Below are positions 19,373 to 64,000 of a stretch of DNA of 64,000 bases, one piece after another. This DNA is from Dryococelus australis (Eukaryota > Arthropoda > Insecta > Phasmatodea > Phasmatidae). The stretch's first letter is position 1. Every line of letters starts with the position of its first letter. Position numbers and translations under genes: made by a program. Below the pieces are notes generated by a model. That model was not told where the DNA came from and did no database searches. It saw nothing but the letters and a program-made list of their open reading frames with translations. Location of the stretch: the NCBI GenBank assembly GCA_029891345.1, contig CM057009.1, positions 302,227,466-302,291,465 of the forward strand. The letters are read 5' to 3'.

Positions 19373-19375
19373 CAA

Positions 19376-40480: not shown

Positions 40481-40482
40481 CA

Positions 40483-43168: not shown

Positions 43169-43171
43169 TTT

Positions 43172-44340
43172 TGACACCAGGTGGGGTGTCTCCATGGCAC
43201 GGATAAATGAAAAAAGGTGCTTATGCTCTGGGTTGTGCTGCTGACGACCAATGCCTTCCTTTCCTGTATCCTTGTAGAATGATGAATAAAGGTTAAATGT
43301 AAATCTTCGTGGACTCTTAGGACGGACCACACATCACCTGAATTAAATACTTTGAATTGAAAACACTGCAGTACAGGACACTCTTGAAAAAAAACACGTA
43401 AGTAGCACACTTTAGAAATGGCAGGAAATGAGGGCCATGTGCCCTTATGCGCCTGAAAGCATAGACAGAATCAAACATGCACTTTACTAAGTGATGTTAT
43501 TTATTAGTCCGTGAATTTACATGCTTCTCCAGGCAGCAACTTACATAGGTACAGAATTTAACCGGTCAGTAATGGTGAAACTGAACAAAGGGCCACATGG
43601 GCTACACAATAGTTACAGGTACAAGTAATCTCTCTGTGGCGATGAAAACCAGCAGGGAGAGGAGGGGAGTTTTCCTGGGTGGCTAAACGTAAAAAGGTTC
43701 CAGTAGTTTAAAGTCTATTACAAATTAAAGTGATCAGCAACAATGTTTGAAAGTCACCCGGGCACGCGGGACGCAACACACGACAACCCGACTCACCCCT
43801 CCATGTGCGAGCGATCACTTACTTGGCATGCTGATGCGAGGGCCAGCAGTGGTGGGCCCGCATATCATGTACAAAGTACCATTATATTTACTTGGAGTCA
43901 AGTACAGTGTGTAGGAGACACACAATAAATTAAATATACAGCAAAAGACGTAATGAACCCTTAATAAAAGTGTATGGATGATGAGGTGGTGAAACACGTG
44001 AAATGTAAACAAACAGGAAAATGGCTTCGATAAGTTCATCATTCCCATCTTGTAATATGTTGGTGTATTTCGTGAAGCATTAATCATATATTTTACTTTT
44101 TAAACACAATTTGCACTCATTACATATCCCTTCGCCACGTGGAATAGCTGGCTGGTTGAACACACATTCACATTCCTACATTAAACTGCCCCCTTCTACA
44201 CCTGGCTTGCCCTACTTGACAGTGCACTGCATTGCACTGACTTGACACACTTCACTAGACACTGCATGCTGCTGTGCTCTGGGTAGAATGTGCATCCTGC
44301 CGGTGCAGGTACTCACTGCGGGTGGGCAAACTGTCTAAGG
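43172..44340 (-). repeat. LTR of element A (5' copy)
   Basis: It begins TGACACCAGG next to the primer site and ends about GTGGGCAAACTGTCTAAGG at 44340, aligning with 12953-14178 and, over its right half, with 40483-41062. It is related at greater distance to LTR B, with the shared GGCTAA-AAAAGGTTCC-AGT-like block near 43680. No coding; an AATAAA lies at 43276 on the plus strand. The outer edge is uncertain by some bases. Confidence 0.75.
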
Positions 44341-44876
44341 AATTGCTAGTAATAGTAAAAACAGTTTTGAAACCAGAAACCTGAAAAGCATAACACAAAA
44401 AAAATCATTACTTTGCATTTAAATTCTACCTGAAAGTAGTCCGAAACTAAAATACTAGTCTACTAAACAAAACACATAAATACCAATATTGACTCGTGAT
44501 ACCAACATTGTGCCAAATAGCTAAGCTAATAATGCATTATGAATGTGAAGTAAGTATCAAGATTTATTTAAAACTTTTCTCTGAAAACACCGTAGAGTAG
44601 TTGATAGCATACTTCACTGAAGACAAAAGGTTTGCGAGTTCGATACCAGGTTTCTACAAAGAATTTTATTAAATGTGTAATACAGCTGAAGATAACACAC
44701 ATAAATATGGTAAATAGATCAATTTAATTAGGGTTGTACACAATTTTTTTTTTGTTTTGGAAATGCATTGCAAGCTGTGTCTACGTGGACCACAATTAGC
44801 CAATAGCTCGGCCACAAGAGCCTTACCAACAGTTGCCTAACGAAATGTGGTTTACTTACAGCAGGCCAGAGCAGAA
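44341..44876. other. AT-rich stretch with a tRNA-like repeat
   Basis: Apart from the tRNA-like sequence listed at 44589-44655, nothing was recognised. Confidence 0.45.
44589..44655 (+). repeat. tRNA-derived SINE head-like sequence
   Basis: GTAGAGTAGTTGATAGCATA resembles box A and D-arm, and GCGAGTTCGATACCAGG is a near-consensus box B, about 30 bases apart, as in a tRNA. The acceptor arms do not pair. This is probably a tRNA-derived repeat; no tail was defined. Confidence 0.45.
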
Positions 44877-45102
44877 AGCGGAAGTGGCCTGCTTGTGGTC
44901 AACTTACGGTCAACTCATGTTTTCTCAGACATCAGCCAACAATTCATTAAGGATAAGTGGACCACTTGTGGTTGACTTATGGGCAACTCTTGTTTTGCCA
45001 GACATCAGCCGACAGTATATCCAGAAGTGACCTGCTTGTGGTTAACTTACGGGGAACTCTTGTTTTGCCAGACATCTGCTGACACCTAAATATCAGAATG
45101 TT
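44877..45102 (+). repeat. ~75-bp tandem repeat, three copies
   Basis: The units start at about 44880, 44955 and 45027. Each contains CTTGTGGTYRACTTAYGG, CAACTC-TGTTTT (GAACTCTTGTTTT in the last) and CAGACATC followed by GCYRACA. The copies are clearly diverged. The array sits beside the Gag of element D and contains no gene. Confidence 0.8.
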
Positions 45103-45229
45103 CCCCATGCGTAAACACATCAAACCACAGTTATAATTCATCATGTGTACAACATGCATTTGCGGGTACATTCCGCTTCTTTAATGCCTGTGGATGCCAC
45201 ATGTGGGTTTCTTGTTCACAATCAGATCT

Positions 45230-45600
45230 GCACATGTGGGCCAACTTTATTTTGCTACTTGAGATCCTCCCATTGCATGTCGTAATGTATAATGGATCTC
45301 CGCTAATAACGTGCTGCGCCCTGTAATTTTTCGGCGACACATTGTGCCAATTAATCTTTGCAAACCAAGTACCGTCCTAATATGCCTGTGCAATTGCACA
45401 AAAATGCTTTCAGATCTTCGTTATTCAGTCCAGCGAACATGGGAAGCGACTGAATTTTATTTGGGGTAGTGCGCATTGCACATTCAGGTTGCATGTAATT
45501 TGTTTCAATGGCTGAAGTAGTGTTCGGTAATCCTAAGTTTGTGTTCGGAATTTTGCTTTGGTTGCCACTGAACTCCAGTGCTCCCACTATTCACGCTTCG
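45230..45600 (-). pseudogene. gag: Element D Gag capsid fragment
   Basis: The minus strand reads NKIQSLPMFAGLNNEDLKAF, which matches the start of Ty3/gypsy capsids (IP.F.G...ED...FL), then LAQCVAEKLQGAARY and, in a shifted frame, MQWEDLK, the KLQG.A...WEDLK block of the same domain. A stop after LVCKD and frameshifts break it. It follows the Cys-rich region at 45700-46000 in the direction of transcription. Confidence 0.65.
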
Positions 45601-45699
45601 TCGAATGCACTAGCGGACTTGCTGGTATACCGTCGAACGGATTGATGCTCTCATGTGGTTGAAGTATTGACAATTGCAGCAGAGTGTACATTTTTCACA

Positions 45700-46000
45700 T
45701 CATAAACGTTTCTTCAGTGTATCTACAACGTCCAGACAGGTATTACAATGCCAGTAAGTCAATATTACACATGCCTCGCATTCAACTGTTTCCGTTTGTT
45801 CGCCTTTACAAATACCTTGATGGCATTGTTGCGGTGTCAATTCATCGTCGGTAATAAATCCTAACTGCTTTGGTTTTAATGGCAGTATCATTCTAGTTCA
45901 TTCTTCGCAAAGAATTTTGCAATGCCTATCAACTGTTGCCTGTTCCTTTGCCATTGAAAGTGATGTGGGCATGGTTTCACAGTTGCGTACTGGGTAATTA
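45700..46000 (-). pseudogene. Cys-rich region upstream of Gag D
   Basis: The minus-strand frame is open but for one stop over about 100 codons. It contains RHCKILCEE, CHQGICKGEQTETVECEAC and WHCNTCLDVVDTLKKRL: paired Cys residues spaced like zinc-binding ribbons. Element B carries a comparable region before its Gag (53883-54660), with ETVMCMMCG in place of ETVECEAC. I know of no standard Gag domain of this form. It could be a Gag N-terminal extension or a separate small gene. Confidence 0.45.
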
Positions 46001-47890
46001 CGACTAAATTATCCCACACGTTTTAATCTGTTGTACTTCGGGCATTTTAAAGTCTGAATGTGGAATTGAAAACACATGCTGTTATATTTCTGAACTAATA
46101 TAAAAATATAATGAACTTTAATTAAATTTTGCCAAAATAATGCTTCGTGTAATTTGGTGCTGCATAAAACTGTTCCTTTTGACCACTTTGCCCTATGTTG
46201 CCACAGAAAATATTATTATTTAGCCGTGAGTTGGGAAAGTTCTCTGTGTAGTGATATCTATAGATGGTTCAAGCTGCGTGACGGCTCGGACCACGTGTTG
46301 CATTGTGCTTGTCTTTGCTTATTGCATCACCGCTGCATCCTCGAGGTCACCTGCCTTCCCGATCGATAACAGCCGGCGCTCCACGTGTTCGAGCAGGTGA
46401 TGGGAGGGGGTGGTGTGTCATTGCTCACGTGCTGTTTTAGATGCTCTTCCTGCCCCCTCAAGGCCATGGTGGCACCAAGCTTTTGCTAGTCGCCTCCTAC
46501 ATGTTGCAGTCTTCTTGCCGATAACCTTGCGTTCTGCTTGTTCCTCCTGCTACATCATGGCGCTCGTTCACCGAAATATAAGAATTTTCAAGTAAAAATA
46601 TTTGAAAAAAGAATTAATTTAAAAGTTTGCAAAAATTTGTCTAAAATATTCTGTCCAAAACAAATGCTGCACTGTGTTAACTTGGTTCCTTCAATGCTGA
46701 ATGCTACTTGTGCTATTGCTGTTTACTTTCCTTAAAGTCATGAGTGCAAAGAAAACATATTCCTCAGAGAAATGAAATTTAAATTTTTAAAATGATCATC
46801 CCAGCGCTAATTAAAATTGTAATAAAACTGTTCTTTTGGTAGCTGTATACTAAGTGAAGTAGAATGCTGCTTTACATCCCCTAAGTGCAAAAATAAAATA
46901 AAATAATGCATAAAAAGTTCCACTTGTTACGGATTGGTACTGTTCCTACTACTGGTAATATTAAGTGTGTAGACTTACTGCTTCCGATTCTCCGATCGAA
47001 AAACTCTGGCGGGAATTATTGGTTGCTGGACTTGTGTACATGTACAAAACACTTGATTCTGTTGCATGTTTGGCAAACCTACAAGGGTCTTTATTTCATT
47101 GCACATTCATTATGTTCCCTTCTAAATAATGCACTGTAGTGGGAATTCTTCTTGCCGCCATGTATATGTCACACATGTATGCAGCGTGTTGGTTCTTCCT
47201 GACTTGCTTATCAAAATTTGCATTTGTGAGAGTTTTGAGAAAAAAATTTATTTTAGAAAGAAAAATGTTATTGCATATTTAAAACACGTGTTTCTTAGGC
47301 ATGTTTAAAGTATTCTAATAATGTTCTGAAAGCTTGCAATTACTTTGAAATGTTCGACAGCTGACCACATGTTTCTAAAATATGTGCAGTGTATTTACAA
47401 GTAATTCTGTAATCCTAAATCTTTCAGGATTTTTTATTGCTAATATTATGTTGCCATTCCTGCTCCTTTGCACCTCTTTGCCCATTTGCTTACTACTCTT
47501 GCATGAACGTGTGTAAAAAAAACTTTTCGATGAAAATTTTTAAAATTACATGATAAATTAAAATTCTCACGTTAATTTGCCATGAAGTGAAATTACTGCA
47601 TATCTTGACTTATTTTGCATCCTTCTGCATTTACCGCTATGTTGATGTGCATACACAGGGGTTACATACATACAAACACTACACTTAGTGCAGAAACATG
47701 TACAATTAGTACATTATCGGTTTAAACGTTACTCTCATCAATTTCAGGTGCAGCTTGCTTGTACCTTACTCTTTATGCTGAAGTTCTTAAATTTGCTAAA
47801 TGGCTCCAGTGCCAGGCAGCCATTTCAATTTTGTTGTGCGTTATTAAGCCCCATGGAAGGGAGGCATTTTAATGATGTTGTCCATTGCTA
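46001..47890 (-). other. Leader region of element D, nothing identified
   Basis: This lies between the D primer site and its Cys-rich frame. No motif was recognised; GC rises at 46260-46560. It would be transcribed as a long untranslated leader. Confidence 0.4.
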
Positions 47891-47910
47891 AGCCCCACTT
47901 GGGCAAACCA
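47891..47910 (-). other. Primer-binding site of element D
   Basis: The minus strand TGGTTTGCCCAAGTGGGGCT starts six bases after the LTR end. It is closely similar to the site of element B (TGGCTTGCCCGACTAGGGCT), with 16 of 20 bases the same. I could not assign the tRNA. Confidence 0.55.
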
Positions 47911-47916
47911 TTTTAA

Positions 47917-48475
47917 TGACATGGTTCCCAGGCTCCAGGGATGATCCTTTGGCCAGTCTGACTTTTAAGACCGACCAATTGGTTAGAGTGCCAGCATCAG
48001 AAATCTTAGTAGAGTAATGAGTTGGGGTTGAGTGTCGACAGCCCGTGGGAATCCATGGGGTATGCATCGTGCTGTTGCCAGTGTTGATTACCACATGTGT
48101 TTACTCACACGGATTTAAGGTGGTGGATTGTACCATCACAAAAGCGTGGGCTGTAGGCCTCCCATAAACGATTTACTTACACTGATGCTGTGCTATCAAG
48201 CAGATAGCTCCCATAATCACAATTACATGCGCTATTGCACTTCTGCCTTTAGGATGTCGTGCCCAATAATTACCTTTACAGGTAAAGCCAATAATAAACA
48301 TGAGTTCTAGTAAAAGGATGTTTATTGCCACAAGACAATACATTTTAAGAATGATATGTATGATGTAGTCTTGGAACTTGAAGGTTTCCTGATAACCTGT
48401 AACTGTAAAACTGGGCAAGGCCCTTAAATATTCAATTGGAAAGTTATGTCCCACTGATGGGAATGTAGCGAGTCC
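47917..48475 (-). repeat. LTR of element D, right copy, interrupted by copia
   Basis: It begins TGACATGGTTCCCAGG and aligns with 36003-36560. At 48475 it is cut after GCGAGTCC, where the copia LTR begins; the homologous copy reads on without a break (GTGGGTCCGACC), which gives the empty site. The remainder should lie right of the window beyond the copia 5' end. Confidence 0.75.
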
Positions 48476-48639
48476 TGTTGGAGATTGGGAAATAAAAAAA
48501 AAGGTAGAGGTGCCTTTCTCTGAAGCTTTGTTTTACCGCTCTTTTATACATAAACAATACAGTGTCGCCATATTGGACAACTCACACAGGTGCACAAGTA
48601 TAATTGCCAACTTAATTTTAAAAATAAATACTTTCAACA
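48476..48639 (-). repeat. 3' LTR of the copia element, 164 bp
   Basis: It begins TGTTGAAAG (minus strand), directly after the polypurine tract, and ends CTCCAACA, giving TGTTG...CAACA inverted ends. A TATA-like TGTATAAAAGAG lies in the middle. Its insertion point in LTR D is exact by comparison with 36.5 kb. The expected target duplication is about AGTCC; its partner is outside the window. Confidence 0.85.
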
Positions 48640-48649
48640 CTCCCCCTCA

Positions 48650-49865
48650 CTAAAATACTAATGTGCTCACTCCTAATTTCCTGAACTTGAAGAACGTATC
48701 TATTGCCAAGGGCTTTGTAAATGTATCTGCTATCTGATTATCACACTTAAGATAACTTACAATGTTTGCAGATAGTGCTTTATTAATAATATGGTACTTA
48801 ATATATATATTATTTAATCTTCTATGACTCTTTGTGCTATTAGCAGCTATTATTAGTGACTGATTATCCTCAGCAATCTTAACAGATTTTACTTTGGGAA
48901 AATTAAAGTCACTCAAAAGATTCTTTAACCAATAGGCTCCACTAACTGCTGTGCATAGTGCTATATATTCAGCCTCGGTGGATGAAAGTGCAATACAATT
49001 TTGGTTCCATGAGCCCAAGGTAAGAGCACACTAAAATAGTTTGAAGGAAAAACCTGTAGTGGATTACCTGTCACTGCAATCCCCTCCCCAGTCTGTATCA
49101 ATATACTCTATAAGAACATTATTACTATCACAATTATATTCAAGTTTGTGATCCACAGTACCCTTTACATATCTCAAAATTATTTTGATAGATCTCAAAA
49201 CACACTCATTTGCACCACTTTGGTACCTACTCAACAGGATAACTGAAGCACACAGATCTGCCCTTGAGGCTGAAACAGCATACAACAAACAACCTATCAT
49301 CTGTCTACACACCTTCTGTACGTCTTTATCATTACAAGTTTCATTCAGCATTACAGCCTTGAAATCCTGGTCAATTGGGGTACTAATTGGTTTACACTCA
49401 CACATGCCATATTTACTGAGGACACATTTCAAATATTTTTCTTGACTTATTTCAGTGGTACCATCCTTCAAGTTCTGCTTTACATTCAGGCTTAGAAAAT
49501 TTGACACTAATCCAAAATCTTTCATGTCAAAATTGTTACACAGTGCCTGTTTTGTGATACAAATCTCTGCTTCATCTGGCACCAACATTAAAAGGTCATT
49601 AACATAAACCAATAAATACAATTTCTGACTGCCCTTACATTTACTATACAAACAATAGTCACTCTTACACCTAACAAAACCTTTTGAACTCATGACTGTG
49701 TCAAACTTTTTACCCCAATATTTAAGGTGATTTTTTATAACAATATATTGATTTGTTTAACTTGACCACATTATTTTCACAACTGACTCCCTAAGGCAAT
49801 TTCAACTACATCTCTTTCTCGATATTTGCGTACAAAAATGCCCCTCTTACATCTAGCTGATGAAT
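48650..49865 (-). pseudogene. pol: Copia reverse transcriptase and RNase H
   Basis: On the minus strand, in order: HQLDVRGAFLYANIEKEM (the first RT Asp), SIYCYKKSP, DYCLYSK and LYLLVYVNDLLMLV, where the catalytic YVDD reads YVND, then ISTPID and the connection. RNase H begins EYIDTDWGGDCSDR and, after a frameshift at about 49020-49064, continues NCIALSSTEAEYIALCTAVS to ADTFTKPLA and the C-terminus. Stops and frameshifts near 49690 also break it. The YVDD-to-YVND change would stop polymerisation even if the frames were intact. Confidence 0.9.
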
Positions 49866-49869
49866 AGGT

Positions 49870-51056
49870 TGACATGTTGCACCTCCAGAGATGCTGTGAT
49901 GTGTTCATGTCCTGCCTGGGAGCAGGTGAAGGAGAGGAACTAATGATATGCCCGGCACCACGGTCGGTAGAGTGAACGATGTTGAATGGGCTCGTATGGT
50001 CGATGGCCTATGGCGACTCTGGATACACGGTCAATATGAAGGACAGTTAATTTAATTGTCAGTTAAATTGTGTTGAAACTAAAATATTTCATTTGGGGTG
50101 AAGCGTCGGCCACTTCGCACGCCTATATTATCACTGAATTTACTCTGCTTGAGGGAGGCAGGCCCCATAAATGCAAATCATATACTGAAAGACACTTTAA
50201 AGTTTTATGCAGCTATGATGGTGCAGTACCCAATTAACTCTGGAGCATTAATGTAACAAAACATGTCAAATTAGGGTATGACTGTTTTATTACTGCAAAG
50301 GCACAACAAAATGTTGCTGCGCATGAAAATTCGTACCCTTGGTTAAGCGGACCCGGCACTCTGGATCTGGGGGTGGTCACTACTGTTTCAAATAAGGCGT
50401 AGGTCTTAAGTTAGAATTATGTAACAACGTGTCTCACCAGTGAAGTCCTGGTATGCTACATCAGGGTGCAGGGAGACCTTCACTTGGCTAACTAAAAGTA
50501 CTTAAATGTTCCCGAGTTACATTAACTTTGCGATGAAAGAAAATGCAGCTTGGATTTAATGGCCGAGGGGAGTAAGTAGAGCTTACTGTCTGCCATGCTA
50601 GTTGTCTGGAGTACTGAAGTCTGACTAACGATATGGCGTCGGCTTCGCCGCAATTCTGGCGAATCCGGCGCCAAAAATGAAAATATGTAAAATGCAACTT
50701 AATAACGAACATGATAAATCAAACTGACATTGCACATAATTATGATTACTAAACTAAAACACATTGGTAAATACTCGTGAATGCCAGAGCCCCAGATATG
50801 GTTAAGAATGATATGTCATGAGTATGTCACCGCACTTGATGGGTGATATTAAATGAAATTGCCACTCAGGTAACTGATTCTCGATATATGATCATATGTA
50901 CACTGTTATTATTAACATATTAAAATCGGTGTGTGTCATACTGTTTATAATTAAGGGCATGTGCATGGATGTGATAACACACATATTTCGTTACTAGGGG
51001 CGAAATACTCTCTATGCTGGAATGGGTGGTTTCCCTAATTAATTGTGGTTCAATCA
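49870..51056 (-). repeat. 3' LTR of element B, truncated
   Basis: It aligns with 56020-56490 plus 60588-61326: GCTCGTATGGTCGATGGCCT, CGCACGCCTATATT, GGTATGACTGTTTTATTAC, ATGGCGTCGGCTTCGCCGCA and GGTTTCCCTARTTAATTGTG are all shared. The 61327-61738 part of the other LTR (about 410 bp) has no counterpart here, nor has 60268-60587. The missing 410 bp adjoin the missing integrase, so one deletion probably removed both. Confidence 0.85.
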
Positions 51057-51096
51057 TGATGGAGGTGACACGATGTTGGGTGTCCGTACACTGTAG

Positions 51097-51528
51097 TTAG
51101 GCAGTTAAAAAACTGTCCTGTAAGTCGTCGATCACGAGGTCTGATTTATCAGGAGCCTCGATGACAGCACATCTCACGTAGCCCTTGTAAGTTGTTGGGC
51201 AGTTGGATGTAGTAGAGGGAAGTATGTCGTCTTCTTGGTCCACCACTACCATTTCGCCTGGTGCACCTGAGAGCTCATCTGCCAGCTGATTCTCAGCTCC
51301 TGGTATGTGGTCCACCTCAAAATTGTACGCTTGGAGAGCCCAGGGTACTAATTTGCTCCTGGCTTTTCTCATGGTGTGAAGCCAGATTAATTACCGGTTG
51401 TCAGTTCGTAGTGTGTGTCATTGATACTCTAGGTATTCCCTGTACTGTTTCACAGCCCATGCTATGGTCAGACTCTCTCGCTCGTTCATGTCATATTTAC
51501 CCTCAGTTGCCCCTAACTTTGCACTGTT
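51097..51528 (-). pseudogene. pol: Element B RNase H and integrase start
   Basis: The minus strand shows the RNase H end: RKARSKLVPWALQAYNFEVD then HIPGAENQLADELSG, the HxPG-N-ADxLSR motif with SG in place of SR. A linker follows to DKSDLVIDDLQDSFLTA and a stop. Upstream (51380-51528), broken frames fit the middle of RNase H. The integrase zinc domain and core are absent before the LTR. Confidence 0.8.
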
Positions 51529-52439
51529 TTATTCAATGATGTGCTTCTCTTGGTTGTCTACAATTTGATAAAAGACTTCTCCCAAGCCCTTCTCACATGT
51601 GTCTGTCTGAGGATATAAATGGCGACTTGGGTTGTGTCGAGCCAATGTCTTGCACTCCCTAAACTTGATTTTTATCACTTTAACACTTGCTTCATGTTCC
51701 GCTGTCCTCACGTACTTTATGTTGGGTGTCAACATGTCAGTGAGTGGTGCATTTATGGTTACACAATCCTGTATGATTTCTCGCAGCCAGTTCACCAACC
51801 CAAAAAAAATCCTTAGTTCCTTCCTGGTGTGCGGCACCTCGTAGTCGTTAATGAGGGCTAAATGCTCTTGTGTTGTCCAGCTTCTGTGCTCATCGACCAT
51901 GTGCCCAAGAAACTGTTTGCATGGGTGGTCGATGTGAGACTTGCGGTTCGTACTAGACAACTTGTTGAGGGGTAGTCTCTCCAAGACTAGTGACAGGTGT
52001 TGGATGTGGTCATCCCAGGTTTCTGACCAGATGACCACTTCATCCAGGTACATGAGGGCAAAATCTCCAATGTACCATTCTATTACCTGGACAATCACTG
52101 TCTGAAAAGTTGCAGGTGCACTCTTCAAGCTTAAGGGTATTGCGCTGAAGTGGAACCTTCTCCCATATGGGGCTGTGAATGCCGTTTTGTGATAGCCTGC
52201 AGGTTTTATTGGCACCTGACATTACCCGCTGTGCAGGTCCATTGATGGCATGACCTTATCCTTGCCCAAGGTATGCAATGCATCCTTGAAACTAATGAGA
52301 GAGGTGGGGCGCTCAGTGTGATTTGGTTGATTGCTCTGAAATCTACACAGAAGCACCACATCCCGTCTATCTTGGGTGCCAAGGTGATCGCACTGTTGAA
52401 GTGTTTGCAGGTGGGTTCCATCATACTCTCAGCTAGCAT
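51529..52439 (-). pseudogene. pol: Element B reverse transcriptase
   Basis: The N-terminal part (52439-52206) reads MLAESMMEP, LAPKIDGMWCFCVDFRAINQ. After a frameshift a 228-codon frame (52215-51529) reads MPIKPAGYHKTAFTAPYGRR, FHFSAIPLSLKSAPATFQ, then FALMYLDEVVIWSETWDDHI: the catalytic YxDD is YLDE, a change of the second Asp to Glu. Downstream are CKQFLGHMVDEH, TRKELRIFFGLVNWLREII and the RNase H tether. It is the longest clear protein-coding remnant in the window. Confidence 0.92.
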
Positions 52440-53070
52440 TTCTTCAATTTGATCTTTAATGATGGTGCATTGATATGGCTGGTAACTTCTGGGTCCAGAG
52501 AAGATGATCGGTCATGTTCCAGCGGAATACAATGCTCAGCTATGGTCGTTCGATGGATTGGGTCTCCTGCCACAAATACTTCGCATCGTTCATCCTGTAT
52601 GCATTGCACAAACTTCCTGTATTCTGGAGGGACCACATGATCGAGTTCATCATGTTGTATTCTGGGCTTGTTACAACTGGGTCAAAATTCGTTGTTGTAC
52701 ACTGTTCGCCTTTACTTCAGGCCGAAATGGATCCTATGGGCGGCTGGCTCAAAATTGCTTTTTGTTCTCTGAGCCAGGGGATACCCAAGATGGCATCCAT
52801 CCATAGGTTCGCAGACACAAAGGCTGTGGAGATGGTGTCCACATCTCTAATTCGGATGGTAATCAGTGTCCCTCCCATTGATTCCCCTGTGTTCTGCTTC
52901 ATTGCGAGGTGTAATACCTGTGTACTCGGAAAAATCTCGGTCATGTCCATGAATCCGACATGCACGAAATTATGACTGGCTGCTGTGTCCAATAATGCAT
53001 GGCATGGTTTAAGATTTAAATGTACTGCAATTATAATCATTCTGTTTTGTGTTTTGTTGATTTGCTGCAT
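52440..53070 (-). pseudogene. pol: Element B aspartic protease and linker to RT
   Basis: The minus strand reads LNLKPCHALLDTAASHNFVH: a retroviral-type protease with DTAA in the place of DTG/DSG, an accepted variant in some gypsy elements. TAFVSANLWMDAILGIPWLR with EQKAIL follows, matching element A. The linker at 52636-52433 (VPPEYRKFVQCIQDERCEVF) is the pre-RT region. Frameshifts separate protease from the linker. Confidence 0.85.
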
Positions 53071-53084
53071 GCTTGGTTACTGAC

Positions 53085-53720
53085 TTTTGATTTATACCTG
53101 CTCTAGTTGTTGAGGAGGCGTTGTACCACAGGGGCCGCCATTTCCCCTGGGGTAGTGAGCACCTGGCTCGCCTACCCCAATGGTCCATTTCCTGTCGGTG
53201 GTTTGTTGATGTTCTGTGGTTGGTTGGGTTTTGGACACTGATTGTGCCAATGCATTTTGCCTTCCCGACTGCAATAAATGCACGCAAATGGCAGCTCATA
53301 TCGGCCTCATACCATGCCCGAGGTTGCTGATATCCGTGCTGCCATCCTGGGTGTGGGGTATGTTCTTGTTCGGAACACACCTGCTCCTACTACCTTGTTC
53401 ACTGCCGGTTGCTCATCTGTCCGTTACCTCTGCTCTGCGTCTTTTCTCCGGAGCGAATGATACCCATCACCCTCTCTAGTCGCAGAGTTTTTCTCTCGGC
53501 TGGTAAGGTCCAGCAATGTGGCAGAGCGCATGAATTTATCCATGCTACTGTGAATTAACGGTGCCATTGCTAGCCTGTTTTCCGCTCTTATAGTTGACGC
53601 TCGCTCATGTGTGGATGAAAGTTTTTGATTTGCCCTAGCTTCCTCGTTGCAAACGCGGTCAGAGATTCACCCGCTTTTTGCACTTCTAGCACAGCCCTGT
53701 TCTCTGCTTGCAATGAGGAG
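53085..53720 (-). pseudogene. gag: Element B Gag C-terminal and knuckle region
   Basis: At 53640-53480, broken frames give TAFATRKL...FHPHMS, matching element A Gag. From 53380 on is a region with C/H residues (MSCHLRAFIAVGKAKC) in the place of a zinc knuckle, then a basic linker NPTNHRTSTNHRQEMDHWG. Several frames are mixed, so the extent is approximate. Confidence 0.7.
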
Positions 53721-53882
53721 TAGGTATTGGCAAATCGACTTTGAAAGCTGTAATTCTACCAATACTTTAGTGACTGATTGTTTTACACCAATTACTTGCC
53801 TCGCAGACCAATTGAGTCCATATACAGTGTGGCCTCTCTTGCTGGCACAACCTGTATTTATCTAAATGTGTTGTGCAGTCGT

Positions 53883-54660
53883 TTAGGAATGTCTGCGGTT
53901 CCTCACTTGGTAGGCCTGAAAATGTTGGTGACCATTGAAATGGCCATGTCTTGCCCGGTCAGACATTGCCAGTGCGTTTTTTTGCCCACACATCATACAC
54001 ATCACGGTTTCTTGTGACCCTTGCCTGAAAATTTCTTGTTGACATTGTTCATGCGTTTGTAAATGTTCTGTTTTGACGGCTTTCGAAATTTTATCTGTTC
54101 GGAAAAGAATGTGTTTCCACGTTTCGCAGATAATACGGCCTTGTTGATCTGTGGTGGCCATTACAGCCCGACTCTAACATTCCGGATGAAAACTACGTGC
54201 ACATTATACTCAAATTACGGTTCCATTTCCCCTTTCTGCTCAAGTAATTTGTTTCGCACACCTGCCATATTGCCAATGTGTAGTTACATTTTCTGTGAAG
54301 TTGAAGTGTGGCTGTTCACATTTACAAACAAATTTGTTTGGCAAACCTTGTTCATTTTGAGTGGGTTGCACTTTGCCACAGTCGGCACACAAAATTACTG
54401 GTGTACCACCTGTGGTACAACTCCACGTTTTGCTCCCTCGGGTTCTTTTTGCAATAGTTATTCTTTCTTTGCGAATTATCAAATTCTGTGTTTCCTTACA
54501 CTGACATATTACTTCTTCAAAGGGATTTGTGCATATTGTGGGATGTATACATGTCAAACATAATGGTTTTGCTTTGCCTGCACTTGTACACCAATTCAAA
54601 TGCTTCCAGACAGTATCTTGTACCCCGCATGCTGCGGAGCGCGGGCTTCAAGGTCAAATA
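53883..54660 (-). pseudogene. Cys-rich region upstream of Gag B
   Basis: Two minus-strand frames (54660-54240, then 54161-53883 after stops) are unusually Cys-rich, with repeated CxxC/CxC pairs: PLCLTCIHPTIC, EEVICQCKE, WSCTTGGTPVILCADCGK, FVCKCEQ and QETVMCMMCGQK. VWKHLNWC and ETWKHILF hint at an internal repeat. The spacing suggests several small zinc ribbons. Element D has a similar ETVECEAC block in the same position relative to Gag. No known Gag domain is recognised. It may bind nucleic acid, but that is inference. Confidence 0.5.
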
Positions 54661-55997
54661 CTGTGTTGGTACGCGGCTGGCCATCGGTCGCACCACGAGG
54701 GAGGAAGGGAATTTACTGTCACTCCGGCTCCTTTCTTTCCTGCTGAGAAAACATGTTCCAGCTGCGCGAGTGATGCGTGTGTTTTCCCAGTATACTAGTT
54801 GTTTTAAAAATGGAAAATTTACTTTGAAAAGTTTCTTGAAAATTAGTTGTGGGCTCTTGACTTATGATTGCCACACAACAGCTTTGGAAATCCTTGCAAA
54901 AATGATCTTGATTAATGGCTTTCAAAACTTTGTTGACTTTTAAAAGTCCATGAAAAATCTTTAAAATTTGTAATTATTTAGAAAAATGCTCAGAAATGTT
55001 AAAAAAAAAATTGGTTTAATTGACAGTAGTACTTTAAGTTCGTTACTGTCCAAGGGAATACACTGGAAAAAATTATTGCATATTTTGAAACAATTTGAAC
55101 ATTTTATTACTAAAAAATGCTGCAAAACTTTCCAGAAAATTTCCAAAAATTATTAAAATTAATTTTGATTGCTACTGTATCTTAAATTGCTGACTGGTAT
55201 CGTTTGAAAATACCGCCTTACTTTGCTCATTGTGATACCTGTTGCCAATTACTGCACACATTTATAATTGCCACATGTGTTTTTTTACAAAACACTATCA
55301 CACTTACATATGCACATCTGCTGTGCTGTTGTCTTGCTGCAGTGTAGTGTTGAGTACAGGTAAATTTTTAAATACAATTTACACTTGCAGTGTCGAGTAG
55401 GTGTGTTCGACTTGCATCTGATTTGGCTTACAGTTGTGTATTTTTCATTACGTGTTGTCACATCTTTCCAGTGTATGTCTACAAAAGTTAAAACATCTGA
55501 TGACATTGCATGTAAACAACCAAGCTTAATGGATTGTTTGACAGATGCAGACCTTCACTGTGTGTCAGTTGACATGTTTTGTTTCCCACTCGAATTACTG
55601 TACGTCTGTCAACGTAACACATATGCACTCTACAGTGTAAACAAATCTGACAAATTGACAAATGAATAAATGTACAAATAGTGTGACAAAAGAAAACATA
55701 AAAATCCTTGATATGATTGATGTTGATTGTAGTGTTCACTGTATTGTCTTAATTACGTTGTTTGATAGGTGTCTGAATGTCTCAGGTTACTCACCAATAA
55801 ATGCAGCTGTTCGTTGTGAAGAACTTTTGTCGCACTTTTACCTTTGTCGCGTAGCCTGTTGTCCACATGTTGTGTTGAGCAGACTACCAATGTGTTGTTG
55901 GTGCTCATCTGTACTGTGATGTTCTACTGTTGTTTGATTTGCCTGAGTTGGGAAAACCACTTGATGTAGGAAAGAAGTTGCACTATAATGTTTGAGT
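54661..55997 (-). other. Leader of element B, nothing identified
   Basis: The stretch is between the primer site and the Cys-rich region; it is AT-rich from 54900 to 55500. Near 55928-56030 two similar strings (GCCTGAGTTGGGAAAACCAC and GCCCTAGTCGGGCAAGCCAC) each precede TTGATG, so the primer site may have a decayed tandem copy. No gene seen. Confidence 0.4.
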
Positions 55998-56017
55998 AGC
56001 CCTAGTCGGGCAAGCCA
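55998..56017 (-). other. Primer-binding site of element B
   Basis: The minus strand TGGCTTGCCCGACTAGGGCT starts two bases after the LTR end (56020). It is closely related to the D site, and different from the Lys-type site of element A. The primer tRNA is not identified. Confidence 0.6.
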
Positions 56018-56019
56018 CT

Positions 56020-56490
56020 TGATGCGTTCTGCCTCCAGAGATACTGTGATGTGATCGTTTCCCACCTGGAAGCAGGTGTAGGATAGGAACTGATAATGTG
56101 CCCAGTGCCACATTCGGTAGAGTGAATGATGTTGAATGGGGTCGTATGGTCGATGGCCTACAGCGACTCTGGATATGCGGTCAATATGTAGGGGAGCTAA
56201 TTATTTGTCAGTTAAATGGTGTTGAATCTAAAATATTTTTTTTGTGGCGAAGCTGTTGACCACATTGCACGCCTATATTTTCACTGAATTTACTCTGCTC
56301 GAGGAATGCTGGCCCCTTAAATACAAAACATACACTGAGAGACATTTTAAAGTTGATGCTGATATGAGGGTGCAATAACTGATGAACTCAGGAGAGTTAA
56401 TATAATAAAACACGTCTAATTATGGTATGACTGTTTTATTACCGCAAAGGTACAATGAAATGTTGCTGCACATGAAAATTCGTACCCATG
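56020..56490 (-). repeat. 5' LTR of element B, inner segment
   Basis: It aligns with 49870-50335 of the 3' LTR and ends at ATTCGTACCCATG where element C begins. The 3' LTR reads ATTCGTACCCTTGGTTAAGC at this point, the empty site. Confidence 0.85.
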
Positions 56491-56906
56491 TGACGTCGAC
56501 AGCTCCTAGGCCTCAGATCATTCACCATGTCATGCCAGCAGAGACATCAAGAATGCAACACAACATCGCAGTGGAGCACCTCAGTCGACGAACCAGTGCC
56601 ATGTGCACCAAACAGGTAGTAGTAGCATCTTAGATCTCGTGAGAGTACCACCGCACTGCAGTGCTCCGGGGACTTCATCGCCCGGAGTACACAGTCTCTT
56701 ACCCTCAGTTCGACTTTTGCATTGCCGAGGTGTACTATGCAATTTATGCTCATAGACCCTACGGCCATTTCATCTTTGTAAGAGCCCGCCTGGCTAAAAC
56801 GGTGGTATGCTAACTTCAGTGCAGCAATGGGGAAGAACTTGTAATAAATATGTACTGGTGATAGACCAATGTTTTATTATGATTAACCACCTATTGGTTA
56901 CTTAAC
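56491..56906 (+). repeat. 5' LTR of element C
   Basis: It matches 58698-58814 and 59896-60267, with CCAAACAGGTAGT, ATCTTAGATCTCGTGAGAGT, GGCTAAAACGG and ACCAATGTTTTATTATGATT shared. Relative to the other copy it lacks 1.08 kb after GTGCCATGTGC and about 70 bases after ACTTCATC. An AATAAA at 56840 could be the polyadenylation signal. Confidence 0.82.
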
Positions 56907-57057
56907 CTGACATGTATTGCACCTGCTATGTACTTGAACAACAGAGACCACAACCGGCCCGCCAACACATCTGCAAGCTAAGGAGAACGCTGGCCAGATG
57001 TATCTGACACTGACGCAATACCGTCAAGAAAATTGACGTGAAGTATGGCATAATGTT

Positions 57058-58047
57058 GTGGACAAATACCTGCTCAACATACCACAGTTGGTATTGCCTC
57101 AGCTGCCACAGCATTCGACATCGACCCAGCTCCTGAAAACAGCACCAATGGCAGCTCGTTACTCCGCCCTGCCACCCGTGATGGAGTATGTAAACAAGCA
57201 CAAATGTTGCCAACCATGTCCAGCGACACCAGCCCAGTTCCAGTCACTACCAACCTATGCAGTTACAGCAAGTGAAGTCCCCAGAGCTTTCATTCAGGAT
57301 TGTGAATGGCGCTTGAGTAGATATCGGGTTGATTAGGAAGATTGGCCGCACTGTATATGCAAAATATTTTCAGGAGATGCAATGACCTGGTGGCGTGGTA
57401 TAGCCCACTACGGGTTAACATGGGAGGAATTTCGGAGGAACTTTTAATTCAGATTCGCGACAACATTCACTTCTCTACGCCCACACAGCCAGACTTTTAT
57501 GAGGGAACACACTGACGAGTCACTCTATGACTTCGCCACCAACAAAATCAATTTAATATGTTCATATCATCCTGAACTTTCTCTATGAGACGTGTTGGAG
57601 GTAGTGGAAAGTTCAGCTAGGAAGGAGCATTGCCCGGCGTTAGCCTCCGCCATCCACACGACAGAGCAAGAATTTCTCTAAACCGTACTTCTATTGGATG
57701 CAAACAGTACCACAAGACCTGGTTACGACCGTGATATACCACAGCAGCAGCGAGACACAAACATAAACAAACAGAAAAACCCACCCATAGGAGAAACGGT
57801 AACTAGAGTTCCTGAAACGGTGGCAGCCCCCACCAAAACGATAACTTCTCAGCCTATAGTGAACGAGTTGAATCGACCCAACACACCTTCCCCGAGGTTA
57901 ACAAACAGCAACCGATCGACTCCGCGCCTTCGTAGGTGGTGTAATGGACCACCATGGGACAATGAGTGTCCGACTTGGGTAGATTTTCCACGTGGATCAA
58001 CAACACAACAACACAGATCACTGCCGCGAAATGGTCTGCAGGGGTAG
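57058..58047 (+). pseudogene. gag: Element C Gag
   Basis: One frame continues with few stops through the capsid: FQSLPTYAVTASEVPRAFIQ, DCEWRLSRYRV, DWPHCICKIFSGDAMTWWRG, LTWEEFRRNF, SLYDFATNKINLICSYHPEL and DVLEVVESSARKEHCPALAS. A Pro/Thr/Asn-rich linker (57694-57900) leads to a knuckle-like RRWCNGPPWDNECPTW. It aligns block by block with C' Gag. Its end (58047) overlaps the protease frame (from 57966) by about 80 bases in the -1 frame, the usual gypsy arrangement for frameshifted Pol. Stops after RYRV, RRNF, ELSL and EFL inactivate it. Confidence 0.82.
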
Positions 58048-58340
58048 TGCAACCTAACACCACCCACCCCAGGATGCTACAACAACAGAATGCAACCCGC
58101 AACTCACTAGGTCAGATTATGTGTGAAACTGACAATTTCATACGCATCCTGATCCAAGTTGATGATATTCCTTGCAGAGCATTAGTAGACACAGCGGCCC
58201 TCATAATTTTGTTCACGCGGAGATGGGAAGTGAGCCGATGCGAGGAGCACGTTGCGAGGATACCCGCTCCAAGCAGACTCCACCCGCACGATGCAGAGGA
58301 CAGCAGCAGTGACGATTCGGGAGCAGGCGAACTCTCCTAA
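57966..58340 (+). pseudogene. pol: Element C aspartic protease start
   Basis: NFIRILIQVDDIPCRALVDT followed by AALIILF is the N-terminal strand and catalytic loop (DTA) of a retroviral-type protease. After residue about 85 the frame turns into low-complexity Asp/Ser sequence and ends at 58340 without the rest of protease or any RT. The deletion joins the protease to sequence near the 3' end. Confidence 0.7.
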
Positions 58341-58697
58341 CAACAACAATAGGCAAATGTTGACATTATTCGACCACGGGCGCCCATAGCAGAGCAGCAA
58401 CAGCGAATGCCAGAAGGAGAAGAGAGAGTTGACATTCCGCGACCATGTGGGCCAGCAGAACAACAACAAGCCAATGTTTACAATATGTGGCCGCGTACAT
58501 CCGTGAGAAAACAACAATACTAGGAGGAGTGTGTTGACAGATCTCTACCATGTGCGCTCAGAGCTCTATGTCAACAACAACAAGAGCCACGTGTGTTTCA
58601 GCTGCGACAACGAGAGAAGCTTCAGCCGCCAGCGAGATGCCGCGACGGAGTGTGAAGAGGAAACACCGAGTGAATGGCCACGGAAGGGGAGGGCGTT
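58341..58697 (+). other. Element C 3' internal region and polypurine tract
   Basis: CAACAACA-rich low-complexity sequence with no domain, ending in GGAAGGGGAGGGCGTT directly before the 3' LTR. Confidence 0.55.
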
Positions 58698-60267
58698 TGA
58701 CGTTGACAGCACCTAGACCTCAGGCCATACACCACGTCGTGCCAGCAGAGAGGTCAAGAATGCAACACAACATCACAGTGGAGCACCTGAGTCAACGAAC
58801 CAGTGCCATGTGCATGTTATGTGTCAAGTTCAATGGTGTGTAGAAGGTGTAGTTAGGGTTATGTCAGATGTTAGGGAGTGTGCAGTGTGTGTTTATTTTC
58901 GTATGTGTACGTCATCATCATACAATGTCATAAGTTTTGGCATATAAGTGTCAATTTTTCTCATACTATGTAAGTGTCAGTGTTCCATATCGTGCATCAG
59001 TGTGCACAAATATGTGAAGTTAGGTTACCATGCAACCAGGTACGTACTTGAACGAATGTCAGTGTCCATGCGTAATACGAAGTGCCATGTGCTTTTGTTT
59101 ACTTTTAGTATTTACATTTTGAGGGTCAATGTTTATGTAGTGCCATATGTTAAGACAGTGTTATATTTCCCCATGTTATGTAAGTAAGAGACAAATGATC
59201 TCTTTATATTTGATTATTATTGTTTTAGTATATTCTAGTGCAATTCTGTGTTTATGTAATTATTATGTTGTTGACAGCTCGTGTGCTAGAGGTGCCGGCA
59301 CTTACTTGAACGACCACAGATGAGGCTGTTGTGACACGTAGATGTATCTATAATATTTATGACAATTATTAACGTAACTTTCAATGCATTGAAAATCATT
59401 TTTAATATTTTATATTGTAAAGTGTGTTCGACCAGTACTGGCAGTACTGAATTACTGGACTTTCCTACCACGTTCCAAAACGATGCATGAATGTTGACAA
59501 GTTATTACGGCCACATGGCAAATAGCCCCTACAAAATGTTAAAAGTATTTTTGAAGTGTTTACATTCAAATTAATAGGAACTGGCATGTTTTGCCACAAA
59601 CACTGATTATACAGACATAATAAACTTGCCTGGGGACAGACCCTACAAATATATTATTGTTTATTTGTGTGTCATTGTTGAGGTTAGGTTGCCACGAAAA
59701 TGCAGTCCGCTCGAACGTGTGTATTTATTTTCATAATCTTAATATGTGCTTTTACGTTTTGTTGTTAAAAGTTTATTGAAATGTACATATCATCTGCATT
59801 GTAGAGCCCATTTCGTTTCATTAATATTATTTCAATTTATGTAAATTTATGTCACATGATTTTTGGATGGGAGCATCGGCCAGTGAGCAGCCTCCGTGCC
59901 AAACAGGTAGTTGTAACATCTTAGATCTCGTGAGAGTACCACCATGCCACGTTGCTCCAGGAACTTCATCTTTGTTTGATAATCAGAATGTAATTGCGCT
60001 TAGTTAACGTTAGTCTACCGGAACCTTCTATTTATTGCTCGCCGAGAGTACACAATCTCTGACCCTCTGTTCGTCTTTTACACAGCTGAGGCGTACTATG
60101 CAACTTAAGCTCATAGGTTCTATGGCCATTTCATTTGTGGAAGAGCCAACCTGGCTAAAACGGCGGTATGTAAACTTCAGTGCCCTGATGGGGAAGAAAT
60201 TGAAATAAATACATACTGGTGAGATACCAATGTTTTATTATGATTAACCACCTATCGGTTATTTAAC
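58698..60267 (+). repeat. 3' LTR of element C, with 1.08-kb extra segment
   Basis: It begins TGACGTTGACAGCACC. After CAGTGCCATGTGCA (58814) an extra 1.08 kb (58815-59895) intervenes before GTGCCAAACAGGTAGT. The outer parts match the 5' LTR. Confidence 0.8.
58815..59895 (+). repeat. 1.08-kb segment in LTR C: insertion or ancestral
   Basis: It is flanked by GTGCA (58810-58814) and GTGCC (59896-59900), which may be an imperfect 5-bp duplication or a microhomology deletion footprint in the other LTR. It has no coding or terminal repeats. Short strings such as GTTAGGTTACCATG and GTTAGGTTGCCACG resemble GTTAGATTGCCATG in the long LTR of C', which favours it being native LTR sequence lost from the 5' copy. 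Confidence 0.5.
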
Positions 60268-60587
60268 ATTTTCTCCTAACTTTACACTGAGCACATGTTT
60301 TTGATAATGGCGTTGGGTAGCCAAAATAACCCTTCAGGAGTGAGTTGGCGTATCAGGGAGGCCGACATCCCTGACTATAAGAGGCGATTAGGAGTTTAGT
60401 TAATGGCTGGCGGAACGGTACTTTCAAATTATAATATCATCACGATGTGAATTGGGGGCAGGCCAACGGTCGTATAAGTATAACTTTGTGCTTGCACCGC
60501 GGGCTGGCGCCCATAAGCATGGCAAGTAGCATTTCCTATCCAACACACCTCATTCCCCCCATGGTCCAGCTCGCCGTATGTCTCTTG
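60268..60587. other. 320-bp segment absent from the other LTR B
   Basis: It lies between the end of LTR C and the point where LTR B resumes (TTAGGTGGACCTGGCACTCTGG, versus TTAAGCGGACCCGGCACTCTGG in the 3' LTR). It is either LTR B sequence deleted from the left copy or a further insertion. No gene seen. Confidence 0.4.
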
Positions 60588-61738
60588 ATTAGGTGGACCT
60601 GGCACTCTGGACCTGCCGGTAGTCACTCCTGTTGCAAATAAGGCATAGGCCTTAAGTTAGAGTTATGTAACAATGCATCTGACACGTGAAGTCCAGGTAT
60701 GCTAGTTCAGGTTGCAGAGAGACCTCCCCTAAGCTAACTAAAAGTACTTCAATGTTCCTAAGTTACATAAACTATTGAGGTGAAAGAAAATGCGGCCTGG
60801 GTTGAATTGCCGAGGAGGGTACGTGAAGTTTACTGTCTGCCCTGCCGGTTATGTGGAGTGCTGAAGTCTGACTAACGACATGGCGTCGGCTTCGCCGCAT
60901 GTCTAGCACCAAAAATGAAAACATGAAAAAATGCAACTTATTAACTAACATATTAAATGGAACGGACATTGTACATAATTATGATTATTATACTAAAACA
61001 TTTTTAGTGGCATACTCATGAATGCCCATGCCCCAGATACGGCTAAGAATGTGGCATCACAAGTATGTCACTACACTTGAAGTGTGATATTAAATTAAAT
61101 GATGCCTCAGGTGGCTGATTCTCTATAGATGATTACATGTATGTTATTATAATTAATATATTAAAATTGGTTTGTGCCGTAATGGTTATAATTATAGGAA
61201 TGCATAAGGATGTTACGACACACGGATTCCATCACTAGGGGCAGAACTATGCCCTGTCTTCTATGATATGTTATGCATTCTCTATGCTGGAAAGGGCGGT
61301 TTCCCTAGTTAATTGTGGCGCAATCACCACTAAAAAATACTCCTATTAATTAAATCAGCACGGGAGCATTTCGCCACTTTACACTTCTTGCGGGAATGTG
61401 ATTCCCTGTCGTTTGCCACTACTAGGCCCGTCGACTTCGCACACATTGGAAGGCTACGGGAATAAGCGTCGCCGCTTATCTCAGTGTTCCCTCCAATGGC
61501 TGTTGCGTCTAATGGTAGTGACTTCATGGGACACACTCGTTTAGGCCACATATCCATTCATCACGAGAGTTACCTCTTGTGATAAATTTTAAATAGTATG
61601 ACCTGCAGCCACGAGTTACATGGCGGTATGAAAAGTGTAAACGCCGTTCTTGTCGACCAGCACTGATTGAGACCGCGACCTAATGGCGATCGGTCGAGTA
61701 TTGGGTACAAGGGATATGTGGACGCCAGGGACACGTAG
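60588..61738 (-). repeat. 5' LTR of element B, outer segment
   Basis: Bases 60588-61326 match 50343-51056 of the 3' LTR. Bases 61327-61738 are the start of the LTR (minus strand), missing from the truncated 3' copy. The outer edge is set by AGGT at 61739-61742 and by the copia frame resuming there. Confidence 0.78.
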
Positions 61739-61905
61739 AGGTAATTTAAGCTTAGTAGCAACAGCAACAAAACTTTAAAGGTAGCTAGCTAGTTTTGCGA
61801 CAGGTGCATATAGCTGACTTACATCACAAAGGTCTTTCTGTTCAAAGCCTCTGGCAACCAGTCTAGCCTTGTAATCTTCTTGTTCACAAATACACGTTAA
61901 TTGGA
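61739..61905 (-). pseudogene. pol: Copia RT, N-terminal part
   Basis: The minus strand reads EDYKARLVARGFEQKDLCDV, then YAPVAKLASYL, a stop, and SFVAVATKLKLP, where the B insertion begins. YKARLVARGFxQ and YAPVAKL are diagnostic of copia RT. The frame continues into 49865 on the far side of B. Confidence 0.88.
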
Positions 61906-62442
61906 AAATTAATTTGCTGCTGATTATTGGCTTACCTTTATGCACATCACACACTCACCATGCATTATTGTCTTCTAACACTTCAAGTTCTTTCTCTATT
62001 GCCTGTGATTACTTACAAGCACCACTTCTTTTCATAGCTTCACTATAACATGATAGCTCATTGTTTACACTAAGAAAGCATGTTTCATAACCATTTAACC
62101 AAGATGGTTTCCTTACCCTGTGCTGCCTTCGTTCCAAAGTGTCAAGATAATGTAGCTCTCCTTCCTCCCAACCACAGTCACTATTTTTGTTCTCTTGATT
62201 GCCCTCTTATTAATGCTGCTTGCTTGTACTCATTTCTTATCCCTCTGGATGGCTAGTTGATTGATACTGCATACTTGTATTTATCTCTTTATTTTCACTA
62301 CAACGGATTTCATGCTGCTGACTGTTCTCTCCTGTACCTTCCTCCTCTTCACCTGATGATTCCATAAATTCAACACTCTCCATACTGTTCTTTTGTTCAG
62401 TGCCCCTATTTTTCTTTGAGAATATTACATCCCTCTTTATCT
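61906..62442 (-). other. Copia integrase-RT spacer
   Basis: This is the poorly conserved stretch between the integrase core and RT. Broken frames are rich in Glu, Asn and Ser, as usual in this spacer. No firm motif. Confidence 0.5.
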
Positions 62443-63170
62443 CTACCTTCCTTTCCCTTTAAGGTAAATTCTGTAACCTTTTATGTTTTCAGAGTAATCA
62501 AGAAAGATGCCTGGTACAGACTTCACATTCCACTTCTTCCTTTTCTCCTTAAGTATATGTACATTTACTTCAATACCGAATACTTGTAGCTCTTCAATAT
62601 TGAACACCTTCTGATCCCAAACTCCATATGGTGTTTTTCCACTGGTCCTACCTTTTCCAGTTCTATTCAAGATGAAAACTGCAGTGTTCACAGCCTCTGC
62701 ACATAAGTATTTATTCAACTTCTTAGCACGTAACATTGTTGTAGTTCATCACTAACAAACTCTGTACTGTTTTCTGTACGTAATATTTTTATCTTCATTC
62801 GAAATTGAGTATGTGCCATTTGTATAAACTTCTGTACATTCAATTTAGTTTCATCTTTGTGTTTCATAAAATACACAGACCTGTAGTTGGAGTAGTCATT
62901 TTTTAAATAAATAAATATCTAGAACCTCCTACAGACTTAACTTCCATAGGCCCACATATGTCAGCATGTATAAGTTCATTAGGAAAGGTGGATAATGAGT
63001 TAATTTCACCAAGGGGAATTCTATGTTGTTTCCCTTCGAAGCATGCTTTACACTGAGCTTGGGAAATGCAGAGTTATGAACTTTGATATTATTTCTTTTT
63101 AGCATTTGTGTAACAGAGTCAAAGTTCTAGTGGTCTAACTTCTCATGCCACAATAAGAATTGATCACTTG
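62443..63170 (-). pseudogene. pol: Copia integrase
   Basis: The minus strand shows the zinc domain (LLWHEKLDH, then CKACFEGKQHRIPLGEI), the core with NELIHADICGPMEVKSVGGS (first Asp kept), and KILRTENSTEFVSDELQQ, in which the second catalytic Asp (usually TDNG) reads TENS. The C-terminal frame (62736-62443) reads LCAEAVNTAVFILNRTGKGR, GKTPYGVWDQK and VPGIFLDYSENIKGYRIYL, the copia-type integrase end. Several frameshifts are present. A Tyr/Asp-rich link (LKNDYSNYRSVYFMKHKDE) lies between. Confidence 0.88.
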
Positions 63171-63269
63171 AGGTGGTTTCCCTCAGGCTGGTGATGGCAG
63201 CAACGTCATTAACATTGTATCTGAACTGTATATTGTACACTTTACCTCCCGCGTTGGTAACTGCTCCTA

Positions 63270-63592
63270 CTTTTACCATATTTCATAAATTTATACAATT
63301 TGTTATCAGCTGACATAACAAAACCTCTATTTACTGCACTACTAACCGAAAACAAATTTGTTTTCAAGTCAGGCACATGTAACACATTGTTCAAACTAGT
63401 TTCTACTCAGCCCTGAACATCATAAGCCTGTAGTATTATCTGGCTGATGACTATAGTGCTAATTACTGACCCAACACCAATAACTACTGACTTTTCTTGC
63501 TGAAACTTTTTGTAGTGGATGAAGATTTTACGTTTTAAACACATGTGTTCATTGGCACCGCTGTCTACAAGCCACTAATTGTTTAATGAAAG
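63270..63592 (-). pseudogene. pol: Copia aspartic protease
   Basis: The minus strand reads WLVDSGANEHMCLKRKIFIH with the catalytic DSGA, then SVVIGVGSVISTIVISQIIL and, after a stop, LNNVLHVPDLKTNLFSVSSA, the end block (VLYVPDLKTNLLSV-like) of copia proteases, followed by NKLYKF. Stops before WLVDSGA and after DVQG break the frame. Confidence 0.88.
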
Positions 63593-63599
63593 TCCTGCC

Positions 63600-64000
63600 A
63601 TTGCCGATATTGATACAAAAAAGGCATTGCTGTTTTCTTCTTTTCTTAATCTGAACTTACAGTAGCGTTTGAAATTATCCATTTTTTTTTACTATAGAAG
63701 CACAGTTTGTCACTCTTAGCTTCACTTCCATAATCTTTCTTCAGTGTCCTTATTTTATTACATATAGTACATATAGTGCTCTTCTTTTCTCATCACTAGG
63801 GCTCTATACTCAGGAGGTTACCTTTCCTTTACCCTTTCCTCTTACACCAAGAGTCTTGCAGTTAGGTTATCAAGGCTATGTTTACTGTTCGGAGCTCACT
63901 CCCAAACATATACAAAATGTTGGTATCTTTCTGGCAGTGACATGATAACTTTCGTTATGATAAATTAATCAGCGACATTCTCTCCCAACTCCCTTAGCTT
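63600..64000 (-). pseudogene. gag: Copia Gag, C-terminal part
   Basis: At the right edge the minus strand reads KLRELGENVAD, then VIMSLPERYQHFVYVWE and NSKHSLDNLT, the UBN2-type Gag domain of Ty1/copia (LR.LGE..., LP..Y..F...W). Further left is ICTICNKIRTLKKDY, a knuckle with some ligands lost. The N-terminus is outside the window. Confidence 0.8.

Follow-up and report, generated by a model that had tools for sequence, protein, structure and literature searches.

The right-hand part of a 64,000-nucleotide stretch of Dryococelus australis contig CM057009.1 (the window, in which position 1 is the first letter) was found to hold long terminal repeat (LTR) retrotransposons lying inside one another. 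Very probably, this arrangement is an ordinary serial nest, in which a gypsy-type element (D) received a copia element, the copia element received a gypsy element (B), and B received a gypsy-like element (C). The order D, copia, B, C rests on topology and is supported by two junction pairs and one single junction, B and C being seen at both ends in the window and copia at one. The elements were analysed by window self-comparison, pairwise alignments, a more sensitive comparison, profile searches, shuffle controls, Pfam scans and protein searches. The parts of the nest, from left to right, were as follows.

36003..37637, minus strand: left copy of LTR D (its 3′ LTR), with the copia site intact; right border placed from motifs
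37638..47916, minus strand: interior of D, decayed; protease and start of reverse transcriptase (RT) within 39811-39044; other insertions inside are possible
47917..48475, minus strand: right copy of LTR D (its 5′ LTR); interrupted by copia, the rest lying past the window
48476..48639, minus strand: copia 3′ LTR, TGTTGG...CAACA, adjoining the minus-strand purine tract GAGGGGGAG
48640..49869, minus strand: later part of copia RT and the part after RT, running through the AGGT copy
49866..49869 and 61739..61742, no strand: left and right copies of the B target-site duplication AGGT, abutting LTR B at 49870 and at its outer end, 61738
49870..51056, minus strand: left copy of LTR B, about 412 bp missing at its inner end according to the pair alignment
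51057..56019, minus strand: interior of B, with RT at 51532-52221 and protease at 52720-53076
56020..56490, minus strand: right copy of LTR B, part one, including the C duplication CATG at 56487-56490
56491..56906, plus strand: short 5′ copy of LTR C, read as missing 1084, 69 and at least 316 bp
56907..58697, plus strand: interior of C, with gag-like remains, a protease start and a polypurine tract at 58682-58695
58698..60583, plus strand: 3′ copy of LTR C, read as full length (1886 bp)
60584..60587, no strand: right copy of the C target-site duplication, CTTG
60588..61738, minus strand: right copy of LTR B, part two, reaching the outer end
61743..64000, minus strand: 5′ part of copia, running off the window; by Pfam, RT start at 61778-61954, SH3-like domain at 62446-62745, integrase at 62718-62918 and Pol_BBD at 63410-63574

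Junctions of the Nested Elements

The insertion of B into the copia RT was read at both ends. The original prediction held that the RT was cut at AGGT, doubled at 49866 and 61739, with the frame resuming beyond, and the junction reading bore out all of these points. The two AGGT copies matched at 4/4 bases, for which the chance at fixed positions was 0.005. When AGGT was counted once, the empty site gave the frame KLKLP-IHQLDV, with the longer reading ...VATKLKLPIHQLDVRGAFLYANIEKEM. Twelve codons ahead of the junction region, the RT frame carried a stop. AGGT was ruled out as a part of the LTR sequence because the right copies of B and D have CACT and TTAA, respectively, just before their inner starts.

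C was likewise bounded at both ends within the right LTR of B. This LTR was cut at 56490 and resumed at 60588, and its halves matched 49882-50341 and 50338-51056 of the left copy, which was uninterrupted at 50338-50341, as had been predicted for an intact site near 50.33 kb. The flanks of C were CATG (56487-56490) and CTTG, and the uninterrupted left LTR had CTTG at 50338-50341.

At the outermost level, the LTR D pair (36003-36561 and 47917-48475) had an identity of 81%. Its alignment stopped at 48475/36561, and the copia LTR started right there. The claim that LTR D was cut where copia begins, with an intact site near 36.5 kb, was upheld on this side by a pair match ending at the copia terminus and by an uninterrupted left copy. 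The border of the left copy, apparently at 37637, showed CACGTAA followed by the pyrimidine-rich AACGCCCCTCTCC, a mirror image of the polypurine tract and the start of the LTR in C and in a further element, A, described below. The homology between LTR D and LTR B was too weak for this border to be confirmed in that way. Overall, the two parts of the interrupted element could be matched to an uninterrupted copy or to a continuous frame in the case of B in copia and of C in B, and by half in the case of copia in D. The four-level nest of the original prediction is therefore real for B in copia and for C in B, with both junctions in each case, whereas the D level has one junction and the far end of copia lies past 64000.

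Two repeats were also noted around D. A direct repeat inside it (40467-41067 and 43780-44342, approximately 70% identity) may represent a further LTR pair. At 35999-36002, the left flank of D reads AGGT, as does the B duplication at 49866-49869; this is probably chance, since the duplications of A (AGCA) and C (CTTG) differ.

Classification of the Elements

The copia element was assigned to Ty1/copia from integrase (rve, below the curated cut-off) upstream of RT on the same strand, in the order rve, SH3-like, RVT_2, and from a TG...CA LTR with a polypurine tract, read at the 3′ LTR, the 5′ LTR lying outside the window. RVT_2 was matched in the later RT part at E 9e-20 (49067-49756). In the 5′ part, SH3 and Pol_BBD were matched at E 5e-14 and 7.5e-10, and rve (7e-4) and RVT_2 (5e-5) below the cut-offs. 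Pfam gave no match in 48653-49030, to RNase H or to any other domain; tblastn with copia relatives extended the alignment down to 48659. The stretch after RT is presumably RNase H, as judged by its position in copia relatives. In a batch of 20 open reading frames (ORFs) scanned with Pfam, the only retroelement domain was SH3, and the remaining matches were weak and unrelated.

B showed a protease followed by an RVT_1-type RT on the coding strand, paired LTRs and a 4-bp duplication, as in Ty3/gypsy elements. RVT_1 (E 3.6e-8) and RVP_2 (E 4.7e-6) were above the cut-offs, and RT_RNaseH_2 was below. Integrase downstream of RNase H was not found in the ORFs of B that were scanned, and ORF 51100-51390 had no Pfam match. 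Approximately 0.5 kb separates the RT ORF from the left LTR. We infer that B is a deletion derivative without integrase. In the protein search, the B RT matched 18 proteins at 25-37% identity, one of which had an organism name (Closterium), and gave no clue to the host.

D was assigned to the gypsy type by its protease/RT homology, since tblastn with B ORFs gave 46% identity for the protease ORF and 55% for the ORF before the RT. Beside the inner starts of the right LTRs, the minus strand read TGGTTTGCCC in D (47901-47910) and TGGCTTGCCC in B (56008-56017); these are likely a primer-binding site common to D and B.

C had paired LTRs, a polypurine tract and a 4-bp duplication (3/4 matching), as expected of Ty3/gypsy. 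No retroelement Pfam match for RT or integrase was obtained in the four C ORFs scanned, and C was called gypsy-like only because of its homology to A and B. In the more sensitive comparison, the interiors of B and C matched at E 0.001. By nhmmer, 57223-58219 of C matched the interior of B at E 8e-11, and its 57197-57590 matched the interior of A at E 3e-28 (blastn), the gag remains being 63% identical. The interiors of B and D were alike at E 2e-52. The "four retrotransposon families" of the original prediction thus become three gypsy-type families related to one another (B, C and D) and one copia.

Apparently Incomplete LTRs of B and C

Two related elements in the window served for comparison with C.

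15634..23111: gypsy-type element A, complete at both ends, with LTRs at 15634-17511 (1878 bp) and 21294-23111 (1818 bp)
340..2266, minus strand: LTR E, related to the A and C LTRs; seemingly interrupted at approximately 669-1330

The duplication AGCA flanked A at 15630-15633 and 23112-23115. C resembled A in LTR length, LTR start and purine tract, the tract ending GGGCGTT before 58698 in C and, similarly, GGGGCGTT before 21294 in A. It differed from A in its shorter interior, its short 5′ LTR and the absence of any RT or integrase found in it. The stretch that would interrupt E contained an ORF (669-1058, plus strand) that we read as similar to the RT of a long interspersed nuclear element; Pfam gave no match in this ORF or in ORF 2-205.

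LTR C had originally been delimited as 56491-56906 against 58698-58814 plus 59896-60267, which left an indel of 1.08 kb (approximately 58815-59898) and the stretch 60268-60583. The LTR pairs and junctions drawn in this way held; the boundaries were too short, and 60268-60583 (316 bp) and 61327-61738 (412 bp) in LTR B were unaccounted for. As the simplest account of the sequence, the 3′ LTR of C would be whole and the 5′ LTR would have lost 1084, 69 and at least 316 bp. A profile built from both A LTRs and short flanks could be aligned to 58674-60570 of C at E 2.2e-21, the composition bias being large. The trimmed A profile aligned to positions 982-1872 of the C LTR with a score of 54.7 bits, against at most 0.7 in 200 dinucleotide shuffles, and the trimmed E profile to positions 2-773 and 914-1238 at 32.0 and 31.0 bits (best shuffle -0.2, n = 200). 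According to this coverage, E spanned both breakpoints of the 1.08-kb stretch (117 and 1201), and A spanned the right one. A 121-base piece at the right breakpoint scored 6.3 bits with A and 6.8 bits with E, and none of 200 shuffles scored as high. Conversely, a search with the C LTR recovered the LTRs of A and E (E 1.5e-15 to 1.1e-9). When the 1.08 kb was shuffled, A was matched in 16 of 200 cases at no more than 15.8, and the E sum stayed at or below 31.9 in 200/200, against 63.0 for the natural sequence. When 60268-60583 was shuffled, the A score was at most 41.3 against 54.7, and no alignment of 200 reached C position 1800. The 316 bp as query against the window found both A LTRs at the matching place (E 9e-4 and 8e-3). 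The 1.08-kb indel, which had been counted as a fifth event, is thus better explained by a deletion from the short 5′ copy, since related LTRs in the window match the supposedly extra sequence across the breakpoints.

The right LTR of B exceeded the left by approximately 412 bp at the outer end, and 61327-61738 had been omitted from it. Because the right copy is longer, the left copy was read as one from which this part has gone, along with polypurine tract and integrase end. That the 412 bp are LTR B sequence lost from the partner is suggested by the duplication and the end motif.

LTR Divergence

Kimura two-parameter (K2P) distances, with bootstrap intervals, were 0.210 (0.169-0.256) for D, 0.214 (0.183-0.247) for B, 0.166 (0.123-0.212) for C and 0.196 (0.173-0.220) for A. 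They were calculated without any rate from 558, 1167, 414 and 1799 columns, respectively, with gaps, duplications and one-copy stretches excluded; the A pieces started a few bases off the true starts. B exceeded C in 96% of bootstraps. The predicted direction, B older than C, was therefore obtained, with a difference interval (-0.008 to 0.101) that includes zero. D exceeded B in 44% of bootstraps, and the two were inseparable. The divergences neither contradict nor prove the nest, and they agree with it loosely. The four values are close to one another. For ordering these insertions, divergence between LTRs lacks the resolution that topology offers.

Proposed Order of Events and Alternative Explanations

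In the proposed model, the gypsy-type D would have arrived first, and copia would then have entered its 5′ LTR. B would have entered the copia RT gene and C the right LTR of B, each with a 4-bp duplication. Later deletions may have removed the left LTR part and integrase end of B and trimmed the 5′ LTR of C at three places. LTR D presumably resumes past 64000, the integrase of B was probably lost by deletion, and the deletions would postdate insertion.

Several findings weigh against this account. The D/copia level shows one junction only, and the divergences of D and B are equal within error, though D must be two steps older. The duplication of C matches at only 3/4 bases (chance of at least three at a fixed position, 0.057), the inverted repeats that end the LTRs are imperfect in B (3/7) and in C (4/7), and the LTR ends were already known when the duplications were read. 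Regarding the losses from C, 60268-60583 alone had no match to the A or E profile, and the trimmed A profile matched the right half of the C LTR only. The single junction would also fit a right D copy truncated before or by the arrival of copia, so that copia would lie beside D and not within it. The motif-based border at 37637 leaves room for this, as does the marginal homology of the LTR D tail to LTR B (best score -0.9, with 0/300 shuffles as high; E 0.014 to 0.32 for the full LTRs). However, the end motif and pyrimidine tract of the left D copy lie at 37631-37650 and not at 36561, and the break falls at the exact copia terminus; such a truncation is considered improbable. An assembly chimera, in which the pieces would not be contiguous in the animal, is most improbable, because the breaks coincide with LTR ends and carry short duplications, and the RT frame continues, which is unexpected from a random misjoin.

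The extra stretches of the 3′ LTR of C could instead be later insertions, the 1.08 kb and the following 316 bp having entered LTR C or its flank. The 5′ LTR lacks both stretches, and the two C copies alone leave the direction open. The 1.08 kb is bounded on each side by GTGC (58810-58813 and 59896-59899), a possible 4-bp duplication; it equally fits microhomology at a deletion, and either reading leaves two bases (AC) unexplained. The 316 bp unmatched by the profiles would suit insertion too. By contrast, the E LTR crosses both breakpoints, the 121-base piece matches A and E beyond all shuffles, the C LTR query finds the A and E LTRs, and shuffling of the 316 bp lowers the A score and removes every alignment to C position 1800. 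Moreover, the A LTRs (1878 and 1818 bp) are near the full C LTR (1886 bp) in length. Insertion is hence regarded as unlikely, and deletion from the 5′ LTR is preferred. As a caution of method, an indel between the two LTRs of one element may be taken for an extra event, and related LTRs can indicate that it is a loss.

Comparison With Known Elements and Nests

The protein search with the copia RT ORF gave 11 matches, one of them a Ty1/copia protein from Dryococelus australis (P0003) with 79% identity over 34% of the query; the other named matches, from a plant and an aphid, had 36-37% identity. The Dryococelus match points to a stick insect as the probable host. The window copia differs from the Dryococelus australis element in being split by B and in having stop codons.

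The locus consists of old, broken elements and is a case of ordinary nested retrotransposons, a known feature of large genomes. Its value lies in one readable insertion series, in a genome that is apparently that of a phasmid. No title or abstract opening among the papers listed in the literature search described the locus. A considerably more speculative idea, which we hold to be quite improbable, is that related gypsy elements in this insect lineage favour LTRs beyond chance, as in two of the three nestings here and contrary to the plant pattern below, and that they afterwards shed the end of pol, which would lead to a build-up of derivatives with gag and no integrase.

In PMC6911290, 1491 nested LTR retrotransposon pairs are described in 12 plant genomes; nesting is called common, particularly in large genomes, and is named as a means of relative dating. 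The regions reported there as least nested are LTRs and the integrase domain. The present nest differs in its insect host and in that two of its three nestings lie in LTRs, three events being too few for a conclusion. It resembles the plant nests in that younger elements sit inside older ones.

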